Below are positions 48,192-57,789 of a stretch of 64,000 nt of DNA, piece after piece. The notes below the pieces were generated by a model that was given only the letters and a program-made list of their open reading frames with translations, did not search any database and had not been told where the DNA came from. The position numbers and the translations under genes are program-made. Position 1 is the stretch's first letter. Each line of letters opens with the position of its first letter. The DNA is taken from contig CANMAW010000001.1 in the NCBI GenBank assembly GCA_947495915.1, positions 248,001 through 312,000 of the forward strand. The letters are read 5' to 3'. Origin of the DNA: Maribacter algarum (ex Lu et al. 2025) (nom. illeg.). GTDB taxonomy: Bacteria > Bacteroidota > Bacteroidia > Flavobacteriales > Flavobacteriaceae.

Positions 48192-48249
48192 TTAACCTTT
48201 AATTTACATCCTAACATTTAATTAACCCTTTTACAATACATCTTTAACA
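48192..48249 (+). promoter_or_regulatory. PHO-box-like hexamers (11-bp period) before the TonB receptor
   Basis: TTAACC at 48192 and TTTACA at 48203 are 11 bp apart. A second series has CTAACA at 48211, TTAACC at 48222 and TTAACA at 48244 (11 and 22 bp steps). Hexamers of this form at 11-bp spacing are what Bacillus PhoP binds (TTAACA-type repeats). Similar arrays occur at 53573 and 54518. The receptor ATG is at 48324. Confidence 0.5.
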
Positions 48250-48323
48250 TATGGGTAACTCGACTTTTACAACTACCCAGTTCTTTTGCAGCGGTATTTA
48301 AAACAAACATAGTTACAATTAAA

Positions 48324-51173
48324 ATGAAAAAAATTCTATTAAGTCTGCTACTATTAGCAGCAGTGCAAATTAGTGCACAAGACACTGGAAGTATTGCAGG
48401 AAAACTGACAGATAAAGAACTGAATAATGAGCCTCTTGCTTTTGCCAACATTCTTATTGAAGGTACTACTAAAGGTACCACATCTGACTTTGATGGTCTT
48501 TATGAAATTGCGGGTTTAGAGCCTGGCACTTACACTGTTATTTATAGCTTTTTAGGTTATGAAACCGTTACTATACCTGATGTAAATGTTGAAGCAGGTA
48601 AAGTGACTACCATTGATATTCCAATGTCAGCCAACGCTGGAGTTGAATTAGAAGGTGTTACGGTTGTTACGGTTGCTAGAAAAGATTCTGAAACGGCATT
48701 GTTATTAGATCAAAAGAAAGCCACCACTTTAGAAACATCAATCGGTGCACAAGAACTTATTAGAAAAGGAGCTGGTGACGCCAGTGCAGCAGTTACCAAA
48801 GTAACTGGAATTTCAAAAGAAGAGAGTTCGGGTAATGTTTATGTGCGTGGACTTGGTGATCGATTTAATATTACCACCCTAAATGGTTTGCCTTTACCAT
48901 CTAATAACACCTCTAAGAAAAATATTGATCTTGGTATCTTTGGAACAAGCATTATACAATCAATTGGTGTTGATAAAACCTATAACGCTAGAAATTATGG
49001 TGATTTCGGTGGCGCTAACATTAACATTGTTTCAAGAGATTATGTGGGCTCTGGATTCTTAGAGCTAGGCTTTCAATCAGGGGCAAATTCAGAAGCATTA
49101 AGCGTTGATGAATTTTATCTTAATGATGGACCAAGTTTCACTGGTTTTTACGACAAATCAATTGCTAACAATCCTTTCTCAGATACATTTGACACGAGTT
49201 GGGATAGAACAAAAGAAGGCACTCCTTTAAACTCAGGCCTTTCTATTAAAGGTGGTGATTCGTATACTATTGGAGAAGACACACGATTAAATTTCTTCGC
49301 TGTAGGCTCGTTCAGTAACAAAAACTCATACCGACAAGGTGTAAACAGAGGAGCTCCAAATGTTGGTAACGGTTTGCCAAACTCTGATTTTGATTACGAA
49401 AAATTTAGTTACAATACTGCGGCAACATTAATGGCTAATGTTGGTCTTCGTTTTGGTCAATCTCATGCCTTGAAGTACAACTTTTTAATGCTCAATAATT
49501 CAGAGCAAAAGCAAGAAGAATTCACGGGTATTATTGACCGTGAAGATGATGCGCCAGAAGGTGGTGGTTTTATACAAAGAGCAACTTTCGAAAGAACCAC
49601 TTTATATATCAATCAACTACTAGGTGAACACGATCTAAGTGATAAATTAGAAGTTAATTGGGGTGCTGGTTACAACTATGTTCTTAATCTTATTCCAGAC
49701 CGTAGACAAAATACAGTGCTACCTGTAAATAATAATGACCCTGACGGTCCTAAATCTTTCCGTCTAGTATCTGCTGCTTCTGAAAATCACAGATTCTGGC
49801 AAGATCTTGAAGAAGAAGAGGTATCTGCCAACATCTCAACGACTTATAAATTCAAAGAGAATGAAGATGAAGAATTTGATGGAAAATTAACAGTAGGGTA
49901 CAACGGTAGATTTAAAGATGTAGGTTTTGAAGCAATACAATTCAACTATCAGTTTTTAGACATCAACAATCAACCAGAAGTTGACCCTAGAAATATCGAT
50001 GCTTATTTCGCTGATAACCCTGTTAATTCTGGTCTATATCAAATTAGAACATTTAGAGGTGCATCTTCATTTAGTGGCGCATTAGAACCTCAAACTTATG
50101 AAGGGGAGCAACAAGTAAATGCTGGGTTTGTTTCTTTGGAATACAAATTCGGACCAAAATTCACATTATTAGCTGGTGTAAGAGGTGAACAAATCAATCA
50201 GACCATTTCTTGGAATGTTGTAGTAACACCACAAACCGGATCAAATGAATTAGACATTTTCGAGGTTTTACCTTCTTTAGCTTTAAAGTATGAGCTAAAT
50301 GAAAAACAAAACTTAAGATTCGCTGCTAGTAAAACGTATTCATTACCACAATTTAAAGAAAGAGCACCTTTCTTATTTCAAGAGGAAATTAATCAAGATT
50401 CACAAGGTAACCCTGATTTAGTGAACTCAGTAAACTATAATTTCGACCTACGATGGGAACTTTTTCCAACTTCAAGTGAGATACTTTCTTTCGGTGTGTT
50501 TTCAAAATACATAGAAAACCCGATCAACACTTTTTTGGTAGTGTCTGCAGCAAACAACTTGAGTTATGCAAATACCGGTGATTCTGCAACAGTTTTTGGT
50601 GCAGAGCTTGAAGCGCGTTTCAATGTTGTTGAAAATGAAATTGAAAAAGGTGATGATTTTCTAAAAGAAAGATTAACACTAGGTGGTAATATCTCTTATT
50701 TGAATTCAAATCAAAAACTAGATTCACAAAAGATTTCAGAAGAAACTAATTTATCAGCGGCTTTTACGAATACAGAAGCTCCTTTACAAGGTGCATCAGA
50801 TCTACTACTTAATGCCGACATCAGTTACCTAAAAGAGTTCGCTGCAAACAAAAGCTTCAGCTCAACTTTAGCAGCTAATTATTTTTCAGATAGATTATAT
50901 GCTATTGGTAGTACTGGTCGTGGTCATTTAGTAGATAAAGGTTTCACCACCGTAGACTTAATATCAAAAATGGAGTTGGGTGAACATTTCGGCATCGGTC
51001 TTAACCTAAGAAATTTATTAAATCCAGCAATTGAACGAATTAATGAAAATGCCGAAGGTACTTTAGATCTAAATAATCCTGCCATTCCAGGGTTCTTAGA
51101 AGATGGTCCTGTTACTGTTTTATCATACAAACGCGGAGTTGATTTCTCCTTTTCACTTTCTTACAAATTTTAA
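48324..51173 (+). CDS. TonB-dependent receptor with CarboxypepD_reg domain (phosphate-linked locus)
   Basis: The 949-residue outer-membrane receptor has a signal peptide ending in ISAQ, then a CarboxypepD_reg domain (about 20-105). A plug domain (RKGAGDASAAVTKVTGISKEESSGNVYVRGLGDRF) and a long barrel follow, ending in SFSLSYKF. It is the first gene of a set with a duplicated lipoprotein (46 bp downstream) behind 11-bp-spaced TTAAC hexamers. Uptake of a phosphorus compound or similar nutrient is inferred from context, not shown. Confidence 0.92.
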   Translation: MKKILLSLLLLAAVQISAQDTGSIAGKLTDKELNNEPLAFANILIEGTTKGTTSDFDGLYEIAGLEPGTYTVIYSFLGYETVTIPDVNVEAGKVTTIDIPMSANAGVELEGVTVVTVARKDSETALLLDQKKATTLETSIGAQELIRKGAGDASAAVTKVTGISKEESSGNVYVRGLGDRFNITTLNGLPLPSNNTSKKNIDLGIFGTSIIQSIGVDKTYNARNYGDFGGANINIVSRDYVGSGFLELGFQSGANSEALSVDEFYLNDGPSFTGFYDKSIANNPFSDTFDTSWDRTKEGTPLNSGLSIKGGDSYTIGEDTRLNFFAVGSFSNKNSYRQGVNRGAPNVGNGLPNSDFDYEKFSYNTAATLMANVGLRFGQSHALKYNFLMLNNSEQKQEEFTGIIDREDDAPEGGGFIQRATFERTTLYINQLLGEHDLSDKLEVNWGAGYNYVLNLIPDRRQNTVLPVNNNDPDGPKSFRLVSAASENHRFWQDLEEEEVSANISTTYKFKENEDEEFDGKLTVGYNGRFKDVGFEAIQFNYQFLDINNQPEVDPRNIDAYFADNPVNSGLYQIRTFRGASSFSGALEPQTYEGEQQVNAGFVSLEYKFGPKFTLLAGVRGEQINQTISWNVVVTPQTGSNELDIFEVLPSLALKYELNEKQNLRFAASKTYSLPQFKERAPFLFQEEINQDSQGNPDLVNSVNYNFDLRWELFPTSSEILSFGVFSKYIENPINTFLVVSAANNLSYANTGDSATVFGAELEARFNVVENEIEKGDDFLKERLTLGGNISYLNSNQKLDSQKISEETNLSAAFTNTEAPLQGASDLLLNADISYLKEFAANKSFSSTLAANYFSDRLYAIGSTGRGHLVDKGFTTVDLISKMELGEHFGIGLNLRNLLNPAIERINENAEGTLDLNNPAIPGFLEDGPVTVLSYKRGVDFSFSLSYKF

Positions 51174-51219
51174 TACTAATTATAAGAACGCTTTATTTAA
51201 CCATATTAAAACTAGAAAA

Positions 51220-53451
51220 ATGAAAAAAACAATGTATTCCTTAATGTTAAGTCTTGCTCTTGTAGCTTTCGCAGCCTCATGTAGTAATGATGACAACGCT
51301 CCTATCGTCACAGCACCTACGTGTAATGATGGTATTCAAAATGGAGATGAAACCGGCGTTGATTGCGGCGGTACTTGCACCCCATGTGAAACTGGGGGCG
51401 AAGTTGTATCACTATCAGGTGATGTGACGGAAGATACCACTCTTGATGCTGTTAATGAATATGAATTAACAGGAGCTTATATTGTTAAAGCTGGTGCTAA
51501 ATTAACAATCCCTGCAGGAACAACTATCGAAGCTGCCGGAGGTACCGCTTCATTTATTGGTGTAGAAAGAGGTGCTCAAATTGATATTCAAGGTACAGCT
51601 ACTAACCCTGTAATTTTGACTTCAGGTGCTGCTTCACCTGCTGCTGGTGATTGGGGTGGATTAGTTATCGCAGGTGATGCGCCAACAAACAAAGGTACAG
51701 ACGTAACTACTGAAGTTGGTGATCTTACTTATGGTGGTGCAAACGCAGCTGATAACTCTGGTTCAATTCGTTATTTAAGAGTTGAGTATACTGGTGCAAC
51801 ATTCTCAAATGATAAAGAATTTAATGGTGTTTCATTATTCGGTGTTGGTTCAGGTACTACTTTCGAATATGTTCAGTCTTTCAACGGTGGTGATGACGGT
51901 ATTGAATTCTTCGGAGGAGCTGTTGATGGAAACAACTTGGTTTCTATAGGAAGTGGTGATGACTCTATTGACTTTGCTGACGGATGGACTGGAAATGGTA
52001 CAAACTGGTACATTGCTGGTGGTGCAAAAGCTGGTATCGAAGGTTCAAACAATGGTGATGACGGTAACGCAACACCAACAACTACAACTACATTAACTAA
52101 TATTACCGTAGTTGGTCCGGTAACTGAAGGTGCCTTATTCTTCAAAGAAGGTGGTGGATCATTTACAGTTGACAATTTTTACACAAGTGGAATTGATTTA
52201 GGTATCAATGTAAAAGATACTGACGTAGAAGCAAATGCTAGAATTGACGCAGATGATCTTGCTATTACTAACATTCAGTTTGGTGATACGGCTGAAGGTT
52301 TTTCTGCAACGAACTACCTAGGAACAAACACAGATTTCTACACAGAAGGTATTGCTACTGGTGCAGGTAATGGTGCAGCTGCCCCAGATTGGGCTTCTGG
52401 CTGGACGATAGGTCTTAGCAACAGTGCTCCTGCAAGTAGCGAAAACTTGGCCGGTGAAATTACTGGAGATGTTTCATTAAATGCTTCAGTTGAATACCTT
52501 TTAACTAGTGGATTAGTAGTAAAATCAGGAGGTTCATTGACTATTCCTGCAGGTACTACAATTAAAGCCTCTGGTGGTACTGCTGCTTTTGTAGGTGTAG
52601 AAAGAGGTGCTCAAATCTTCATTAACGGTACAGCTACTAACCCTGTAGTTATGACATCAGGCGCAGATACTCAAGCTGCTGGTGACTGGGGCGGACTAGT
52701 AATTGCCGGTGACGCACCAACAAATAAGGGTGTTGACGTAACTACTGAAGTAGGTGATCTTACTTACGGAGGTACTAACGCTGATGACGATTCAGGATCA
52801 ATCACATACTTGAGAATTGAATACACGGGTGCTACTTTTTCAAACGACAAAGAATTTAATGGTGTTTCATTATTTGGAGTTGGTTCAGGTACTACCTTCG
52901 AATACGTTCAATCATTAAACGGTGGTGACGATGGTATCGAATTCTTCGGAGGATCTGTTGATGGAAACAATTTAGTTTCTATCGGAAGCGGCGATGACTC
53001 TATTGATTTCGCAGATGGATGGACAGGTAGCGGTACAAACTGGTACATTGCTGGAGGTGCAAAAGCTGGTATCGAAGGATCAAATAATGGTGACGACGGT
53101 AATGCTACACCTGTTACAACAACTACATTAACTAACATCACTGTAGTAGGACCCGTATCTGAAGGCGCTTTATTCTTCAAAGAAGGCGGTGGAAACTTTA
53201 CAATCGACAACTTCTATACTAGCGGTATTGATTTAGGTATCAAAGTTAAAGACACAGATACCGAAGCAAACGCAAGAATTACTGCCGGTGACTTAACAAT
53301 CACTAACATTCAATTTGATGCAACAGCAGATGGTTTTGTTGCAACTGATTATACAGGTACAGAAGCTTTTTATACAGAAGGTACTACAACAGGAGCTGGT
53401 AATGGAGCAGATGCTCCTGACTGGGCAGCTGGTTGGACTTCAGGACTATAA
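51220..53451 (+). CDS. Lipoprotein with two 345-residue beta-helix repeats
   Basis: The 743-residue protein has a lipobox (FAASC, Cys21), a CNDGIQNGDETGVDCGGTC segment common in exported Bacteroidota proteins, and then two near-identical halves (about residues 65-409 and 410-743). The offset is exactly 1,035 bp, as shown by CCTGCAGG at 51511 matching the same region at 52546. Each half carries TIPAGTTI, GVERGAQI, AGDWGGLVIAG, NGGDDGIEFFGG and GSGDDSIDFADGW, a pattern typical of right-handed parallel beta-helices. The ATG at 51220 is used, since an earlier frame (51103) overlaps the receptor and lacks a signal. It probably works with the receptor as a surface lipoprotein. Confidence 0.88.
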   Translation: MKKTMYSLMLSLALVAFAASCSNDDNAPIVTAPTCNDGIQNGDETGVDCGGTCTPCETGGEVVSLSGDVTEDTTLDAVNEYELTGAYIVKAGAKLTIPAGTTIEAAGGTASFIGVERGAQIDIQGTATNPVILTSGAASPAAGDWGGLVIAGDAPTNKGTDVTTEVGDLTYGGANAADNSGSIRYLRVEYTGATFSNDKEFNGVSLFGVGSGTTFEYVQSFNGGDDGIEFFGGAVDGNNLVSIGSGDDSIDFADGWTGNGTNWYIAGGAKAGIEGSNNGDDGNATPTTTTTLTNITVVGPVTEGALFFKEGGGSFTVDNFYTSGIDLGINVKDTDVEANARIDADDLAITNIQFGDTAEGFSATNYLGTNTDFYTEGIATGAGNGAAAPDWASGWTIGLSNSAPASSENLAGEITGDVSLNASVEYLLTSGLVVKSGGSLTIPAGTTIKASGGTAAFVGVERGAQIFINGTATNPVVMTSGADTQAAGDWGGLVIAGDAPTNKGVDVTTEVGDLTYGGTNADDDSGSITYLRIEYTGATFSNDKEFNGVSLFGVGSGTTFEYVQSLNGGDDGIEFFGGSVDGNNLVSIGSGDDSIDFADGWTGSGTNWYIAGGAKAGIEGSNNGDDGNATPVTTTTLTNITVVGPVSEGALFFKEGGGNFTIDNFYTSGIDLGIKVKDTDTEANARITAGDLTITNIQFDATADGFVATDYTGTEAFYTEGTTTGAGNGADAPDWAAGWTSGL
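51412..53451 (+). repeat. Tandem 1,035-bp coding duplication
   Basis: Two copies (about 51412-52446 and 52447-53451) encode the halves of the lipoprotein. Most differences are at third positions or give conservative changes, so the duplication is not recent but is maintained. Antisense open frames (51873-52175 and 52908-53210) appear at the same place in each copy and are shadows. Confidence 0.85.
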
Positions 53452-53509
53452 GCTAAAAATATGTTTGATCGAGCTGAAAGTAACTAAGGCTCTATTAAAT
53501 ACCACTGAG

Positions 53510-53539
53510 AACCCTGCTGAAAAGCAGGGTTTTCTTTTT
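53510..53539 (+). terminator. Rho-independent terminator of the receptor-lipoprotein operon
   Basis: AACCCTGCT (53510-53518), loop GAAA, AGCAGGGTT (53523-53531), then a T-rich tract. A GAAA tetraloop and a perfect stem make this a strong terminator. Confidence 0.88.
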
Positions 53540-53572
53540 CAAATAGGCTTGGATTAATAAGCCAAACTACAT

Positions 53573-53622
53573 TTAACCTTTTTCTTACATACTATTAAAA
53601 ACTACATAACCTTAACTTAACC
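53573..53622 (+). promoter_or_regulatory. PHO-box-like array of five hexamers, 11-bp period
   Basis: TTAACC (53573), CTTACA (53584), TTAAAA (53595), ATAACC (53606) and TTAACC (53617) start exactly 11 bp apart. This is the longest clean array in the window. The stand-alone CarboxypepD_reg gene begins at 53657, so the last repeat is 35 bp before it, a normal place for an activator such as PhoB/PhoP. Confidence 0.6.
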
Positions 53623-53656
53623 TTGACCATCGTTATTTGCAGCTCTAAACGTGAAA

Positions 53657-54055
53657 ATGAAACATACGATATTAATTATCTTTCTAATGTTAGGAGCTAC
53701 ATTGTTCTCTCAAGAAACAGGAAGCATTAGAGGAACGGTTACCGACAAAGCAATGAACAACGAACCGATGTTGTTCGCTAATGTGCAGGTTAAAGGTTTA
53801 GAAACGAATTTTCAAACGAATTTTCATGGTAATTTTGAAATTACAAATGTTGCACCCGGTAAACATACTTTAATTATAAGTTACGCTGGCTACAGCACTA
53901 AAGAAGTTTTAGTTAACGTTGCAGAAAATGAAATTTCTGAGTTGCAAACAACATTGGCGAGAATGCAAGTAAGTTTTGATGATGTTGCAGGTCTTGATAC
54001 TGCATTAGAAGATGCAAAAAATAATTCGCAAGTGAATACCGCTAATATAAAATAG
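53657..54055 (+). CDS. Stand-alone CarboxypepD_reg-like exported protein
   Basis: The 132-residue protein has a signal peptide ending in LFSQ and a single carboxypeptidase-regulatory-like beta-sandwich, then a short helical tail. It matches the N-terminal domain of the 949-residue receptor closely (TGSI.G..TDK..NNEP..FANV), but the plug and barrel are absent. I use the ATG at 53657; a GTG two codons earlier is possible. A role in binding the receptor's partner or regulating it is inferred. It lies behind a five-hexamer PHO-like array. Confidence 0.82.
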   Translation: MKHTILIIFLMLGATLFSQETGSIRGTVTDKAMNNEPMLFANVQVKGLETNFQTNFHGNFEITNVAPGKHTLIISYAGYSTKEVLVNVAENEISELQTTLARMQVSFDDVAGLDTALEDAKNNSQVNTANIK

Positions 54056-54082
54056 TAAAAAAAGTACATATTTATAAAACAA

Positions 54083-54110
54083 AAAAGAGACTCCGATGGG
54101 AGTCTCTTTT
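54083..54110. terminator. Bidirectional terminator
   Basis: AAAAGAGACTCC (54083-54094), loop GATG, GGAGTCTCTTTT (54099-54110) form a perfect 12-bp stem between two convergent genes, with A/T runs on both sides. Confidence 0.88.
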
Positions 54111-54130
54111 ATTTTTGGGGGAATAACAAT

Positions 54131-54490
54131 CTAGTTGTTACTAACAATTCCCTCTGTATTTTTAGTTTCAGAAACAGCAGCAATTGCATTATTGCTATAT
54201 TCTACTTCCTTTAAAACATTATTCGACCAGAATAACCACTTACCAGTCTTTACTCCATTCTCATATGATCCTACAGTAATGGTTTCCCCTTTTTCATTAA
54301 AGCTAGTCCATTCACCATGTAATTCTTTATTCAAATTAAAGGTCCCTTTTTGACTTATTTCTCCATTGGCATGAAAATATGTAGCTTCTATTAGATTTTT
54401 TTCTTGATTTAATTTCATTTCAGGCTTTGCTTGTGCAAATGTCATTACGGAAACAAAGAATATAGCGAGTATTAAAATTGACTTTTTCAT
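54131..54490 (-). CDS. Exported MORN-repeat/YwqK-like small protein
   Basis: The 119-residue protein has a signal peptide ending in TFAQ and then about three MORN-like units (ANGEISQKGTFNLNKELHGEW, EKGETITVGSYENGVKTGKW, SNNVLKEVEYSNN). Similar proteins are called YwqK-type or membrane-binding proteins. The PHO-like array at 54518-54567 lies just before its start and also before the phosphate transporter on the other strand. Confidence 0.82.
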   Translation of the reverse strand: MKKSILILAIFFVSVMTFAQAKPEMKLNQEKNLIEATYFHANGEISQKGTFNLNKELHGEWTSFNEKGETITVGSYENGVKTGKWLFWSNNVLKEVEYSNNAIAAVSETKNTEGIVSNN

Positions 54491-54517
54491 AAAAACTTAT
54501 TTAAATTATGACTCAAA

Positions 54518-54567
54518 TATACATTAAATTTACTTTATAATCACTTTTACTTAACATTAAATTTACA
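54518..54567. promoter_or_regulatory. PHO-box-like array of five hexamers between divergent genes
   Basis: TATACA (54518), TTTACT (54529), ATCACT (54540), TTAACA (54551) and TTTACA (54562) start 11 bp apart. The last two are almost identical to the pair at 48192-48208 (TTAACN-TTNAA-TTTACAT). The array lies between the MORN-like gene and the PiT transporter. The remaining 54568-54798 shows no gene. Confidence 0.55.
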
Positions 54568-54798
54568 TAGAAAACGACAAAATGCTAAATATATTGTTCA
54601 ACTACTGAAAATAATTGTAGGTATAACCAGTACAGTAGAGGTTTTTGCTAAAATCACTCCTTTTTTCATCTAAATGCTATAAGACCACAAATTTTAATAC
54701 CAAAAGTAATTTCATAACATTCAATTAACGTATAAACTGAATTATAATAGCACTTTTGTCAGCAACCTATTATTTAATAGGATAACGATACTAGTACT

Positions 54799-57042
54799 GT
54801 GGGAGAAGACATTTATCTTTTTATGATCATCGCTTTAGCGATTTTAGCTATAACCGATTTAGTCGTAGGTGTGAGTAATGATGCTGTAAACTTTCTGAAT
54901 TCGGCAATTGGATCGAAAGCTATTTCATTTAAAACTATTATGATTGTCGCCTCTATTGGTATTGCCTTTGGAGCCATATCATCTAGTGGTATGATGGAAG
55001 TAGCACGTAAAGGTATATTTAACCCATCTGAATTTGTTTTCGCCGAAATCATGATCATTTTCATGGCCGTCATGATCACCGATATTCTGCTACTTGATTT
55101 TTTCAATACGCTTGGAATGCCTACTTCTACAACGGTTTCTATTGTTTTTGAATTATTGGGTGCAGCGGTTGCAATCTCACTTTTAAAAATATCAAATAAT
55201 GACGGTGGTCTTAATGACCTCACCAACTACATTAACACTGATAAAGCAACCGAGATTATTCTAGGCATACTGTTATCGGTTGTTGTCGCATTTACCATTG
55301 GAGCAATAGTTCAATATGCATCTCGATTATTTATATCTTTTAAGTTCAATGAACGACCTAAATGGGTTGGAGCCCTTTTCGGCGGTTTTGCAATTACCTC
55401 TATTATCTATTTTATCATTGTTAAAGGATTAAAAAGTGCTGCAGTATTTAGTCCTCATGTATTGGCGTTTATTGCAAATAATCCTGAATTATTTCTTCTT
55501 GCTAATTTCATTCTTTGGAGTGCTTTTTCTTGGGTTGTAAGTAGCTTTTTTAAAATAAATATATATACCTTAATAATTGTGTTTGGCACATTTGCCCTAG
55601 CTATGGCCTTCGCCGGCAATGACCTTGTTAACTTTATCGGTGTACCATTAGCAGCCTTAGAATGGTATAACGCATGGTCAGGATCAGGAATCGATGCGGC
55701 AGCTTTCACAATGGATAGTGGCGCAGTACAAACCCCTACCATGTTACTGTTGGCATCAGGTGTTGTTATGGTCGTTACTTTGTGGTTTTCTTCAAAAGCT
55801 AAGAACGTAGTGAAAACAAGTGTTGATCTGTCGCGACAAGATGAGGGTGATGAAAGGTTTCAACCAAATTTCCTTTCTCGTCAAATTGTAAAATTTTCAA
55901 TTCAAGCATCTGAACACTTGGGTGGTTTATTACCTGATGCTTTGGTGTCAAAAATTGATTCACGTTTTGAAAAACCTTACGTATATGTTCCTAAAAGTCG
56001 TATACAAGATCTACCTGCCTTTGATTTGGTAAGAGCTTCAGTGAACCTTATGGTTGCCAGCGTACTTATCTCAATTGCTACTTCAATGAAATTACCCTTG
56101 TCTACCACTTATGTAACCTTTATGGTTGCTATGGGAACCTCACTGGCCGACCGTGCCTGGGGGCCTGAGAGTGCAGTTTATAGAGTAGCAGGTGTTCTTA
56201 ACGTTATAGGCGGTTGGTTCTTTACGGCATTTAGTGCTTTTGTCGCTGCTGCTATTATTGCCTACATTATTCATTTAGGTGGCATTTGGGCTATTGGCAT
56301 CTTATTAGTAATTGCATTTTTACTCATTACAAGAAACTACCTTTCACACAACCGAAGGATGAAAGAAACCAAAATAGAAGAGAAACTTAAAAAATCAGAA
56401 AGCAATTCTATTATTGGTCTTATTGAAGAAAGCTCTTCAAACATTTCAATGGCTATAGAGCGCGCAAACAAAATATACACCCAAACTATTGATGGTTTAT
56501 CTAAACACGATATAGACAAGCTTAAAAAGAGTAAAAAAGGTATTTCAAAACTCAACAGCGAAGTTGAAGACCTAAGTGGCAACATTTTTTACTTTATCAA
56601 AAATTTAGATGAATCTAGTGTTGGCGCTAGTAACTTTTACATTACGGCATTGAGTTATTTACAAGATATGACGCAATCTTTAGAATACATTTCTAAGGCA
56701 AGCTACAAACACGTTAACAACAACCACAAAAAGCTACGTTTTAACCAAATCAAAGATTTAAAAGAAACCGATCTTTTCATTGATGAACTATTCTCAGAAC
56801 TAAAATCCATTTTTGATACCAAGTCATATGATCAATTAACCAAAATTATCATGAATAAAGAGGTGTTAATCGCGACTATAGATCAAAAAATCAATAAACA
56901 AATAGAAAGAACCAGAGCTGACGAATCGAGTCCGAAAAACACCGCACTTTACTTCAGCTTGTTACTAGAGACAAAAGACCTACTAAAAGCAACAATGAAT
57001 CTTTTAGAAACCTACGAACGCCCTGCCAATATAAAGTCATAA
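54799..57042 (+). CDS. PiT family inorganic phosphate transporter with C-terminal extension
   Basis: The 747-residue inner-membrane protein of the Pho4/PiT type takes up phosphate with a cation. The two inverted repeats carry VGVSNDAVNFLNSAIGSKA and MKLPLSTTYVTFMVAMGTSLADRAWG. A C-terminal cytoplasmic part (about 520-747) is helical and charged, resembling the PhoU/DUF47-type proteins that often accompany PiT. Here it is fused. The start is GTG at 54799, which is followed at once by the first membrane helix. Confidence 0.93.
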   Translation: MGEDIYLFMIIALAILAITDLVVGVSNDAVNFLNSAIGSKAISFKTIMIVASIGIAFGAISSSGMMEVARKGIFNPSEFVFAEIMIIFMAVMITDILLLDFFNTLGMPTSTTVSIVFELLGAAVAISLLKISNNDGGLNDLTNYINTDKATEIILGILLSVVVAFTIGAIVQYASRLFISFKFNERPKWVGALFGGFAITSIIYFIIVKGLKSAAVFSPHVLAFIANNPELFLLANFILWSAFSWVVSSFFKINIYTLIIVFGTFALAMAFAGNDLVNFIGVPLAALEWYNAWSGSGIDAAAFTMDSGAVQTPTMLLLASGVVMVVTLWFSSKAKNVVKTSVDLSRQDEGDERFQPNFLSRQIVKFSIQASEHLGGLLPDALVSKIDSRFEKPYVYVPKSRIQDLPAFDLVRASVNLMVASVLISIATSMKLPLSTTYVTFMVAMGTSLADRAWGPESAVYRVAGVLNVIGGWFFTAFSAFVAAAIIAYIIHLGGIWAIGILLVIAFLLITRNYLSHNRRMKETKIEEKLKKSESNSIIGLIEESSSNISMAIERANKIYTQTIDGLSKHDIDKLKKSKKGISKLNSEVEDLSGNIFYFIKNLDESSVGASNFYITALSYLQDMTQSLEYISKASYKHVNNNHKKLRFNQIKDLKETDLFIDELFSELKSIFDTKSYDQLTKIIMNKEVLIATIDQKINKQIERTRADESSPKNTALYFSLLLETKDLLKATMNLLETYERPANIKS

Positions 57043-57060: not shown

Positions 57061-57789
57061 ATGCCATCGAGAGTATTGTTTTTTGTTGTCGCAATTTCAA
57101 TTAGCACGCTCACTTTTTCACAAGATATAAGCGGATCTGAATTATTAGAAAAGGCGATTTCTTATCACGATCCAGACGGTAATTGGGTGAACTTACATGC
57201 CAGGCTAAATGTAACAATGACTACCCCAGATAATAATGAACGTAACAGTATTATTGATATAAATTTACCTCAAGAATATTTTCAGGTTACAGCAAACAAT
57301 AAGGGTGTAATTTTGCAACAAACTATTGATAAAGGGCATTGTAAACTTTCTTTAAATGGGAGTTCAACATTTTCTAAAGTAGAAGCTGCAAAACATCGTT
57401 TGAGCTGTGAACGAGCTAAAATGTATAAAGATTATTATACCTATCTCTATGGCTTGCCAATGAAATTAAAAGACCCCGGTACCATAATACATGACACTAT
57501 TCAAAAAAAGCAATTTAAAAACAAAGAATATCTGGTTTTAAAGGTGGAATATGAAGAAGAAGTTGGTAAAGATATATGGTACTTTTATTTCGACCCAACC
57601 ACATTCGCTATGGAGGTTTATCAGTTTTTTCACGATGAAACCTTAAATGATGGCGAATACATTTTACTTACAGGTTTAGAAGAAATGAATGGCATTAAAA
57701 TACCCAAAACTAGAGCCTGGTACTACAACAAAGACCACAAATACCTGGGTACAGACGTTTTAAATGAGGTAGTCTCACCACAAAAGTAG
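57061..57789 (+). CDS. DUF6503 family exported protein
   Basis: The 242-residue protein has a signal peptide ending in TFSQ. The rest is a beta-rich lipoprotein-carrier-like domain: LLEKAISYHDPDGNWVNLHARL, DINLPQEYFQV, DIWYFYFDPTTFAMEVYQFF, GIKIPKTRAWYYNKDHKYLGTDVL. DUF6503 members resemble LolA/LppX folds. It begins 18 bp after the phosphate transporter, so it is probably co-transcribed. Confidence 0.85.
   Translation: MPSRVLFFVVAISISTLTFSQDISGSELLEKAISYHDPDGNWVNLHARLNVTMTTPDNNERNSIIDINLPQEYFQVTANNKGVILQQTIDKGHCKLSLNGSSTFSKVEAAKHRLSCERAKMYKDYYTYLYGLPMKLKDPGTIIHDTIQKKQFKNKEYLVLKVEYEEEVGKDIWYFYFDPTTFAMEVYQFFHDETLNDGEYILLTGLEEMNGIKIPKTRAWYYNKDHKYLGTDVLNEVVSPQK

Follow-up and report, generated by a model that had tools for sequence, protein, structure and literature searches.

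The window analyzed here, a 64,000-nt stretch of the Maribacter algarum contig CANMAW010000001.1 (assembly GCA_947495915.1), contains three arrays of TTAACAT-like units repeated every 11 bp, located upstream of the genes encoding a TonB-dependent receptor (array 1), a stand-alone CarboxypepD_reg-like domain protein (array 2), and a small MORN_2-like protein (array 3). These 11-bp repeats are genuine and conserved, and their positions, period, spacing, and gene neighborhoods are directly observed. Judging from sequence comparisons, the arrays are probably (at about 0.85) operators, that is, Pho boxes with the unit TTAACAT, of the PhoB-type response regulator of Flavobacteriaceae. An earlier reading of the window, referred to below as the original prediction, had placed the receptor, a lipoprotein, the stand-alone domain, the MORN-like protein, and a PiT transporter under a PhoB/PhoR-type regulator. 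This proposal has gained support from several sides: phoB-phoR genes are divergent from the receptor gene in 49 of its 59 relatives; the promoter layout of the receptor recurs before 6 of the 10 strong pstS matches and 19 of the 25 long-form PiT genes of the family; boxes of this kind precede phoB in the window's own genome; and the predicted counterparts of the receptor and lipoprotein in Flavobacterium johnsoniae are induced at low phosphate.

Conservation of the box layout and its occurrence before phosphate genes

The comparison set for the receptor comprised the 59 relatives and the window itself, 60 loci in total. The receptor upstream regions of the relatives share a single layout, with boxes at offsets 0, 11, 19, 30, 52, 63, and 74, followed by TTTG. 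At least 24 of the 28 letters of this seven-box layout were found in 56 of the 60 loci (the lower-scoring ones being L016, L026, L056, and L057), a level reached by 0 of 1000 shuffles (maximum, 19); as the layout was read off those very sequences, these figures demonstrate conservation rather than an independent prediction. The layout still scores 26 in L052, L058, and L059, three Flavobacterium loci whose receptor is just 29 to 32% identical to that of the window. TTTG, the second half of the Bacteroidota -7 element (consensus TAnnTTTG at -12 to -5 in Flavobacterium psychrophilum; PMC9723704), is found 14 nt past the last box in 58 of the 60 receptor rows when any TTTG is counted and in 57 as the first TTTG.

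The boxes lie between the divergent phoB and receptor genes in 48 relatives. The start-to-start distance of the two genes is 179 to 293 bp in 48 relatives and 4152 bp in one, and the PhoB proteins encoded beside the receptor are 73 to 90% identical to PhoB of the window's genome. There, the phoB-phoR pair (L151:8259-10148) is located away from the receptor operon; nevertheless, the region upstream of phoB keeps the distal four boxes of the layout, in reversed orientation and with the proximal boxes gone, and has the best reversed-array score among 260 own-genome genes (the phoB stretch having been included deliberately). The genes that flank L151:7239-10148 resemble those of relatives such as L037, without the receptor-lipoprotein operon.

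Genes other than the receptor were evaluated with a promoter model that consisted of three boxes, a 14-nt distance, and TTTG and was trained on receptor promoters, with p<0.05 counted as a pass. In the 59 loci of the relatives, after subtraction of 330 bp around the receptor starts, this model gave 13 matches of at least 13.5 bits. Twelve of these precede a second receptor, a PstS gene (confirmed by PF12849), a Porin_O_P gene, a lipoprotein gene, three stand-alone domain genes, four PiT genes, and a MORN gene, and the remaining one sits inside a coding frame; since these loci were picked around the receptor, they are enriched in such genes. A gap of 14 and a period of 11 yielded 12 matches at 14 bits in the relatives' loci, versus 0 to 9 for the other 64 settings, and 8 matches at 17 bits, versus 0 to 4.

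Five of the six strong pstS matches that passed (strong meaning >100 bits with a locus, n=10; an eleventh is without a locus) did so at the floor p of 0.003. None of the 19 weak PstS-like matches of the family, a set that omits L228 (a 1029-aa frame), passed. Among the PiT genes, 19 of 30 passed, all of them of the long form; the short form gave 0 of 5.

Arrays of the window and the two promoter classes

All hexamer starts of the original prediction (53573, 53584, 53595, 53606, and 53617; 54518, 54529, 54540, 54551, and 54562; 48192 and 48203; 48211, 48222, and 48244) were borne out when re-read in the sequence, and TTAACNTTNAATTTACAT is indeed common to 48192 and 54551. The five boxes counted in array 2 also stand. 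Array 1, described earlier as a shorter series, has the full seven boxes with the offsets given above, those at 48255 and 48266 having been missed, and the element at 54518, correctly placed, is better read not as a box but as part of the overlapping -7 box of the MORN gene, TATATTTG (minus strand, 54521-54514).

The arrays were scored with a 7-column box matrix derived from receptor promoters (31 representatives out of 56 rows), a training set that includes array 1 of the window and excludes arrays 2 and 3. With both strands of the 64-kb window scanned, the top ten five-box scores all fell on the plus strand within the three reported regions, the best being 28.0 at 53573, 25.7 at 48211, and 17.6 at 54518; the three-box score at 48244 was 18.5. 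In each region, 11 was clearly the top period among periods 8 to 15 (18.5, 28.0, and 17.6 for arrays 1, 2, and 3, versus next-best values of 11.7, 2.4, and 6.1). Shuffles of the intergenic regions matched the observed score in 1 of 1000 cases for array 1 (three boxes), 0 of 1000 for array 2 (five boxes), and 2 of 1000 for array 3 (five boxes). When the entire window was shuffled 60 times (second order, both strands), the five-box maximum was 22.2, which is exceeded at 53573 and 48211; the score at 54518 stays under it, as the three-box score at 48244 stays under the corresponding maximum of 24.3, so the case for these two sites depends on conservation.

Features of the window and the phoB-phoR genes of the same genome
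Feature	Position	Strand	Remark
Array 1, distal module	48192..48228	+	Boxes 48192, 48203, 48211, 48222 (offsets 0, 11, 19, 30); the four offsets are also kept upstream of phoB in the same genome
Array 1, proximal module	48244..48272	+	Boxes 48244, 48255, 48266, 11-bp steps
TTTG of receptor -7 element	48285..48288	+	14 nt past last box; TA half of TAnnTTTG absent
TonB-dependent receptor	48324..51173	+	CarboxypepD_reg-like, Plug, beta-barrel
Lipoprotein	51220..53451	+	Two similar halves; 3' of receptor
Array 2	53573..53623	+	Five boxes: 53573, 53584, 53595, 53606, 53617
TTTG of stand-alone domain gene's -7 element	53636..53639	+	14 nt past last box
Stand-alone CarboxypepD_reg-like domain protein	53657..54055	+	
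Small MORN_2-like protein	54131..54490	-	Below Pfam cut-off
-7 element of MORN gene	54514..54521	-	TATATTTG
Array 3	54529..54568	-	Boxes 54529, 54540 (degenerate), 54551, 54562; reversed relative to MORN gene
PiT boxes	54714..54742	+	54714, 54725, degenerate third 54736
TTTG of PiT -7 element	54755..54758	+	14 nt past degenerate box
PiT/PHO4-family phosphate transporter	54823..57042	+	Long form; upstream GTG at 54799 possible as start
PhoB-type response regulator, then PhoR-type kinase	G000:C1:943277-943936		Window's genome

The lipoprotein probably shares the receptor's operon. No Pfam domain above the cut-off was found in it (51220-53451), and it resembles an internal duplication with halves of ~340 aa, queries with residues ~64-400 and 410-743 matching the same stretches of relatives. 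Counterparts of array 2 were found in L003, L022, and L034, each ending 14 nt before TTTG. In L027 (5882-9503), a gene for a stand-alone N-terminal domain (from 6001) precedes a gene for a full receptor, with a box array before each; as this locus stops ~200 bp past the receptor, it is too short to tell whether a lipoprotein gene follows.

The inclusion of the MORN and PiT genes among the controlled genes agrees with the present reading, the assignment of their boxes in the original prediction less so: array 3 serves the MORN gene, and the PiT gene has a box pair of its own (54714 and 54725, the latter 25, i.e., 14+11, nt before TTTG), which had been missed. Matches to the MORN-like protein are found in 125 of 149 genomes of the family, where it is widespread and often divergent from PiT (loci L260-L289 were examined). 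In the best 30 MORN loci, the reversed array reached p<0.05 in all 30, and a forward array did so too in 5. The PiT gene as the owner of array 3 was ruled out because the array accompanies the MORN gene in all 19 of the 30 loci that show no PiT within the flanks examined. In a search that demanded TAnnTTT, 8 nt separate the -7 element from the edge of the closest box in 21 of the 30 loci and 7 nt in 6; in 27 of the 30, the next box outward is the weakest one. The MORN and PiT genes are divergent within 3 kb in 30 of the 45 genomes compared, a set that leaves out the weak-match genomes G016, G022, G041, and G052. Directly 3' of PiT, a gene at 57061-57789 encodes a DUF6503 protein that may share the PiT operon.

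The two orientation classes differ in their -7 elements. In the forward class, the TA of the consensus was found in only 1 of 58 receptor promoters, 0 of 4 stand-alone domain promoters, 1 of the 6 passing pstS promoters, and 0 of 15 PiT promoters (15 of the 19 passing PiT genes were considered), with 106 of 408 upstream TTTG sites of the own genome having it. The exact TATATTTG occurs in 18 of 28 MORN rows, with two rows left out and TA demanded by the search. We infer that PhoB is the binding protein, that it activates, and that the classes differ functionally, forward promoters needing the activator and reversed ones probably less so. When phosphate runs short, PhoB in its phosphorylated form would occupy the 7-nt TTAACAT units head-to-tail, one every 11 bp and all on one face of the helix. 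The forward class comprises the receptor-lipoprotein operon, the stand-alone domain, PiT, and pstS of relatives; here, 8 nt separate the end of the last unit from the eight-base -7 element, and the distance from its TTAC to TTTG is 14 nt. As this element keeps TTTG with TA mostly lost, RNA polymerase would depend on PhoB to be held there. In the reversed class (the MORN gene and phoB itself), the units point away from the gene, and PhoB would tune an already working promoter, up or down; at the MORN promoter, the -7 element is nearer to the consensus. It is possible, though the suggestion is a tentative one, that PhoB uses two mirror-image operator classes at an equal 8-nt distance, the forward ones (TA lost) being on-switches and the reversed ones (MORN, phoB) having a different, weaker, or opposite response, and that the receptor operon carries its own operator as a portable Pho module.

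The candidate regulator and the extent of the predicted regulon

In an NCBIfam ranking, the PhoB candidate of the window's genome matches PhoB models first (PhoB, then the Bacteroides PhoB). Three own-genome proteins match the whole length of the PhoB model, and the other two match MtrA and RprY best in NCBIfam.

Scanning of 864 kb of the own genome (20.7% of it, made up of the window and 40 stretches) with the promoter model placed three window promoters at the top: the receptor with the proximal module of array 1 (25.5), the stand-alone domain (21.2), and PiT (18.3). A site inside a coding frame comes next, with 17.1. As a calibration, among 260 suitable genes of the 40 stretches, 11 reached p<0.05 and 3 reached p<0.01; for reversed arrays, 6 of the 260 reached p<0.05. 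A box-only profile run against the whole genome gave 21 matches at E up to 10: six in the window arrays (most overlap the training set, the pair in the distal module of array 1 being outside it), one upstream of phoB (outside the training set), one before a lone receptor, and 13 others. The lone receptor, an 899-aa TonB receptor (L198:6760-9459), has an array at C1:802678 with two TTAAC units and one TTAAG in 11-bp steps and TTTG at 14 nt and is likely a further target. In L199 (C7:49942-49963, minus strand), a clear array of TTAAC/TTTAC units overlaps a 48-aa frame, and no gene is evident behind it.

The original prediction had expected a genome search to find the motif before genes such as pstS, phoX, and phoB. 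The phoB match was indeed recovered, and simple patterns performed no better than controls outside the receptor site: a two-box pattern gave 2 own-genome matches versus 1 in the reversed control. As simple patterns fail against controls, no regulon list can be drawn from them alone. The search expected by the original prediction could be made only in part in the own genome: no PhoU, PF00245, or PstS match was found there, and its one weak PhoX-like gene showed no clear array (p 0.22 and 0.46). The phosphate regulon of this genome looks small.

Several observations weigh against the PhoB reading or narrow its reach. The PhoB candidate falls below the equivalog cut-offs (209.9 versus 296.2 bits for TIGR02154 and 208 versus 270 bits for NF053854), and by TIGR02154 alone another own-genome regulator scores slightly higher (214.7 versus 209.3 bits). 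Promoter-model signal was missing at 4 of the 10 strong pstS matches of the family, and PhoX genes passed in only 8 of 20 cases; this set was drawn from 25, with L104 and L105 (short frame, second piece) and L091, L092, and L093 (short upstreams) omitted, and many of its members are long frames of doubtful PhoX identity. By box score alone, only 4 of 28 alkaline phosphatase upstream regions passed (omitting L135 and L136, second pieces of counted genes). In phylum-wide pstS loci, 6 of 30 reached p<0.05, strongly only in L298 (Flavobacteriaceae) and L290; boxes alone gave 11 of 30, mostly low-scoring. The own-genome count of 7 at 14 bits is not above that of some other period and gap settings (0-7); just the top scores stand out. 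The E-values of the box-only profile are weak (best, 0.038), and 13 of its 21 matches, two of them elsewhere in the window, have no convincing role. The strict three-box pattern gave 1 exact match in the whole genome, 0 at one mismatch, and 13 at two, versus 23 control matches with up to two mismatches. The porin match in L052 is at odds with F. johnsoniae, in which OprP was not induced (-1.3), and in Riemerella the loss of a PhoR-like pair raised pstS, contrary to simple activation there (PMC5399024).

Other explanations were also weighed. It is quite unlikely that the boxes belong to another OmpR-type regulator (e.g., an MtrA-like or RprY-like one) or to a non-OmpR factor, with the nearness of phoB being incidental. 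OmpR-family regulators share the head-to-tail binding mode, and it is the MtrA-like regulator that edges above the phoB candidate by TIGR02154; however, phoB-phoR adjoins the boxes in those 49 of 59 loci, the identical layout stands before pstS and PiT genes, and the two remaining candidates are best matched by MtrA and RprY. The boxes could also be regarded as UP-like, AT-rich elements, a general promoter feature of highly expressed genes for outer-membrane proteins with no link to phosphate, given that they are AT-rich, lie just upstream of the -7 element, and in some cases precede genes for outer-membrane proteins. The strict 11-bp periodicity, the pass rate of just 11 of 260 own-genome genes, and the lack of the layout at short-form PiT genes (0 of 5) and at genes with a weak PstS-like match (0 of 19) make this highly improbable. 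As for chance periodicity in AT-rich intergenic DNA, conservation at the receptor (56 of 60 loci) and MORN genes (30 of 30 promoters) refutes it, despite the few shuffles that reach single-array scores and the window-wide shuffles that exceed array 3 and the proximal triple of array 1, so that it is barely conceivable.

A somewhat doubtful proposal concerns only the reversed arrays (MORN, phoB), which would be sites of a different regulator or of a repressor, leaving the forward arrays as the PhoB activation sites. Their opposite orientation fits this proposal, as does the contrast between TATATTTG at MORN promoters and the absence of TA in 57 of 58 receptor promoters. Control of both classes by PhoB is favored by the shared unit, 11-bp period, and spacing of 8 nt between the box edge and the -7 element (21 of 30), by the divergence of the MORN gene from PiT in 30 of 45 genomes, by the additional forward-type match (16.4) upstream of the MORN gene in L022, and by F. 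johnsoniae phoB, which is induced, not repressed (PMC8115612).

Comparison with known Pho systems

Boxes of the PhoP regulator of Bacillus subtilis are of the TTAACA type and have an 11-bp period. The unit found here is very similar and the period is equal, but the phylum and the sigma factor are different, and the regulator ranks PhoB models first. The Escherichia coli Pho box consists of 11-nt direct repeats of the unit CTGTCAT, with seven conserved and four less conserved bases (PMC4415409). The arrays described here are Pho boxes in their anatomy (7-nt units, head-to-tail, with an 11-nt period as in that definition, at a fixed position just upstream of the promoter core of receptor and MORN genes), in their neighborhood, and in their presence before classical phosphate genes of the pstS, PiT, and PhoX types. 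They are variants in unit (TTAACAT, not CTGTCAT, in two to seven copies), in geometry (a fixed 14 nt to the TTTG of the Bacteroidota -7 element), and in orientation, with the reversed class. Pho boxes as a kind are known, and the TTAACAT version appears new within the literature searched; no Pho box of Bacteroidota was found among the matches listed in open-access literature.

For Bacteroides fragilis, PhoB has been reported to bind a 512-bp pst promoter fragment in an electrophoretic mobility shift assay, an example of a Bacteroidota PhoB binding to a pst promoter; the accessible text gives no binding unit and contains the word "consensus" 0 times (PMC3547664). The phylum-wide pstS test gave little signal outside Flavobacteriaceae. 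Members of this family occur widely in marine, freshwater, and soil habitats; expression data have described their phosphate response, without an operator in the literature searched. A defined box with its spacing would allow prediction of the phosphate regulon from a member's genome, would connect phosphate with outer-membrane receptors, with lipoproteins, and with the widespread MORN protein, and would offer a clean test of activator geometry on a Bacteroidota -7 promoter.

A close likeness is seen in the phoBR cluster PUSIV of F. johnsoniae (Fjoh_0541-0549), where phoR-phoB stands beside a TonB receptor and a lipoprotein gene. At low phosphate, the TonB-dependent transporter (TBDT) encoded beside phoB had an FC (fold change) of 8.02, the lipoprotein FII 9.91, and PhoB 3.06 (PMC8115612, Table 1); the values for PafA and PhoA2, in addition to that for OprP given above, were 0.26 and 1.59, and the text of the paper counts by log2FC. 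Its accessible part describes no operator for the F. johnsoniae PHO regulon and contains the word "motif" 0 times. Judging by the common location next to phoB and by L052, L058, and L059, in which the PUSIV gene order is also found, the TBDT and lipoprotein would be the counterparts of the window pair. Unlike PUSIV and the relatives with divergent phoB-phoR, the operon of the window lies away from phoB, in the neighborhood of dgt and PiT; it adjoins an HD/dgt gene, as do the matches in L003, L016, L022, L027, and L034.

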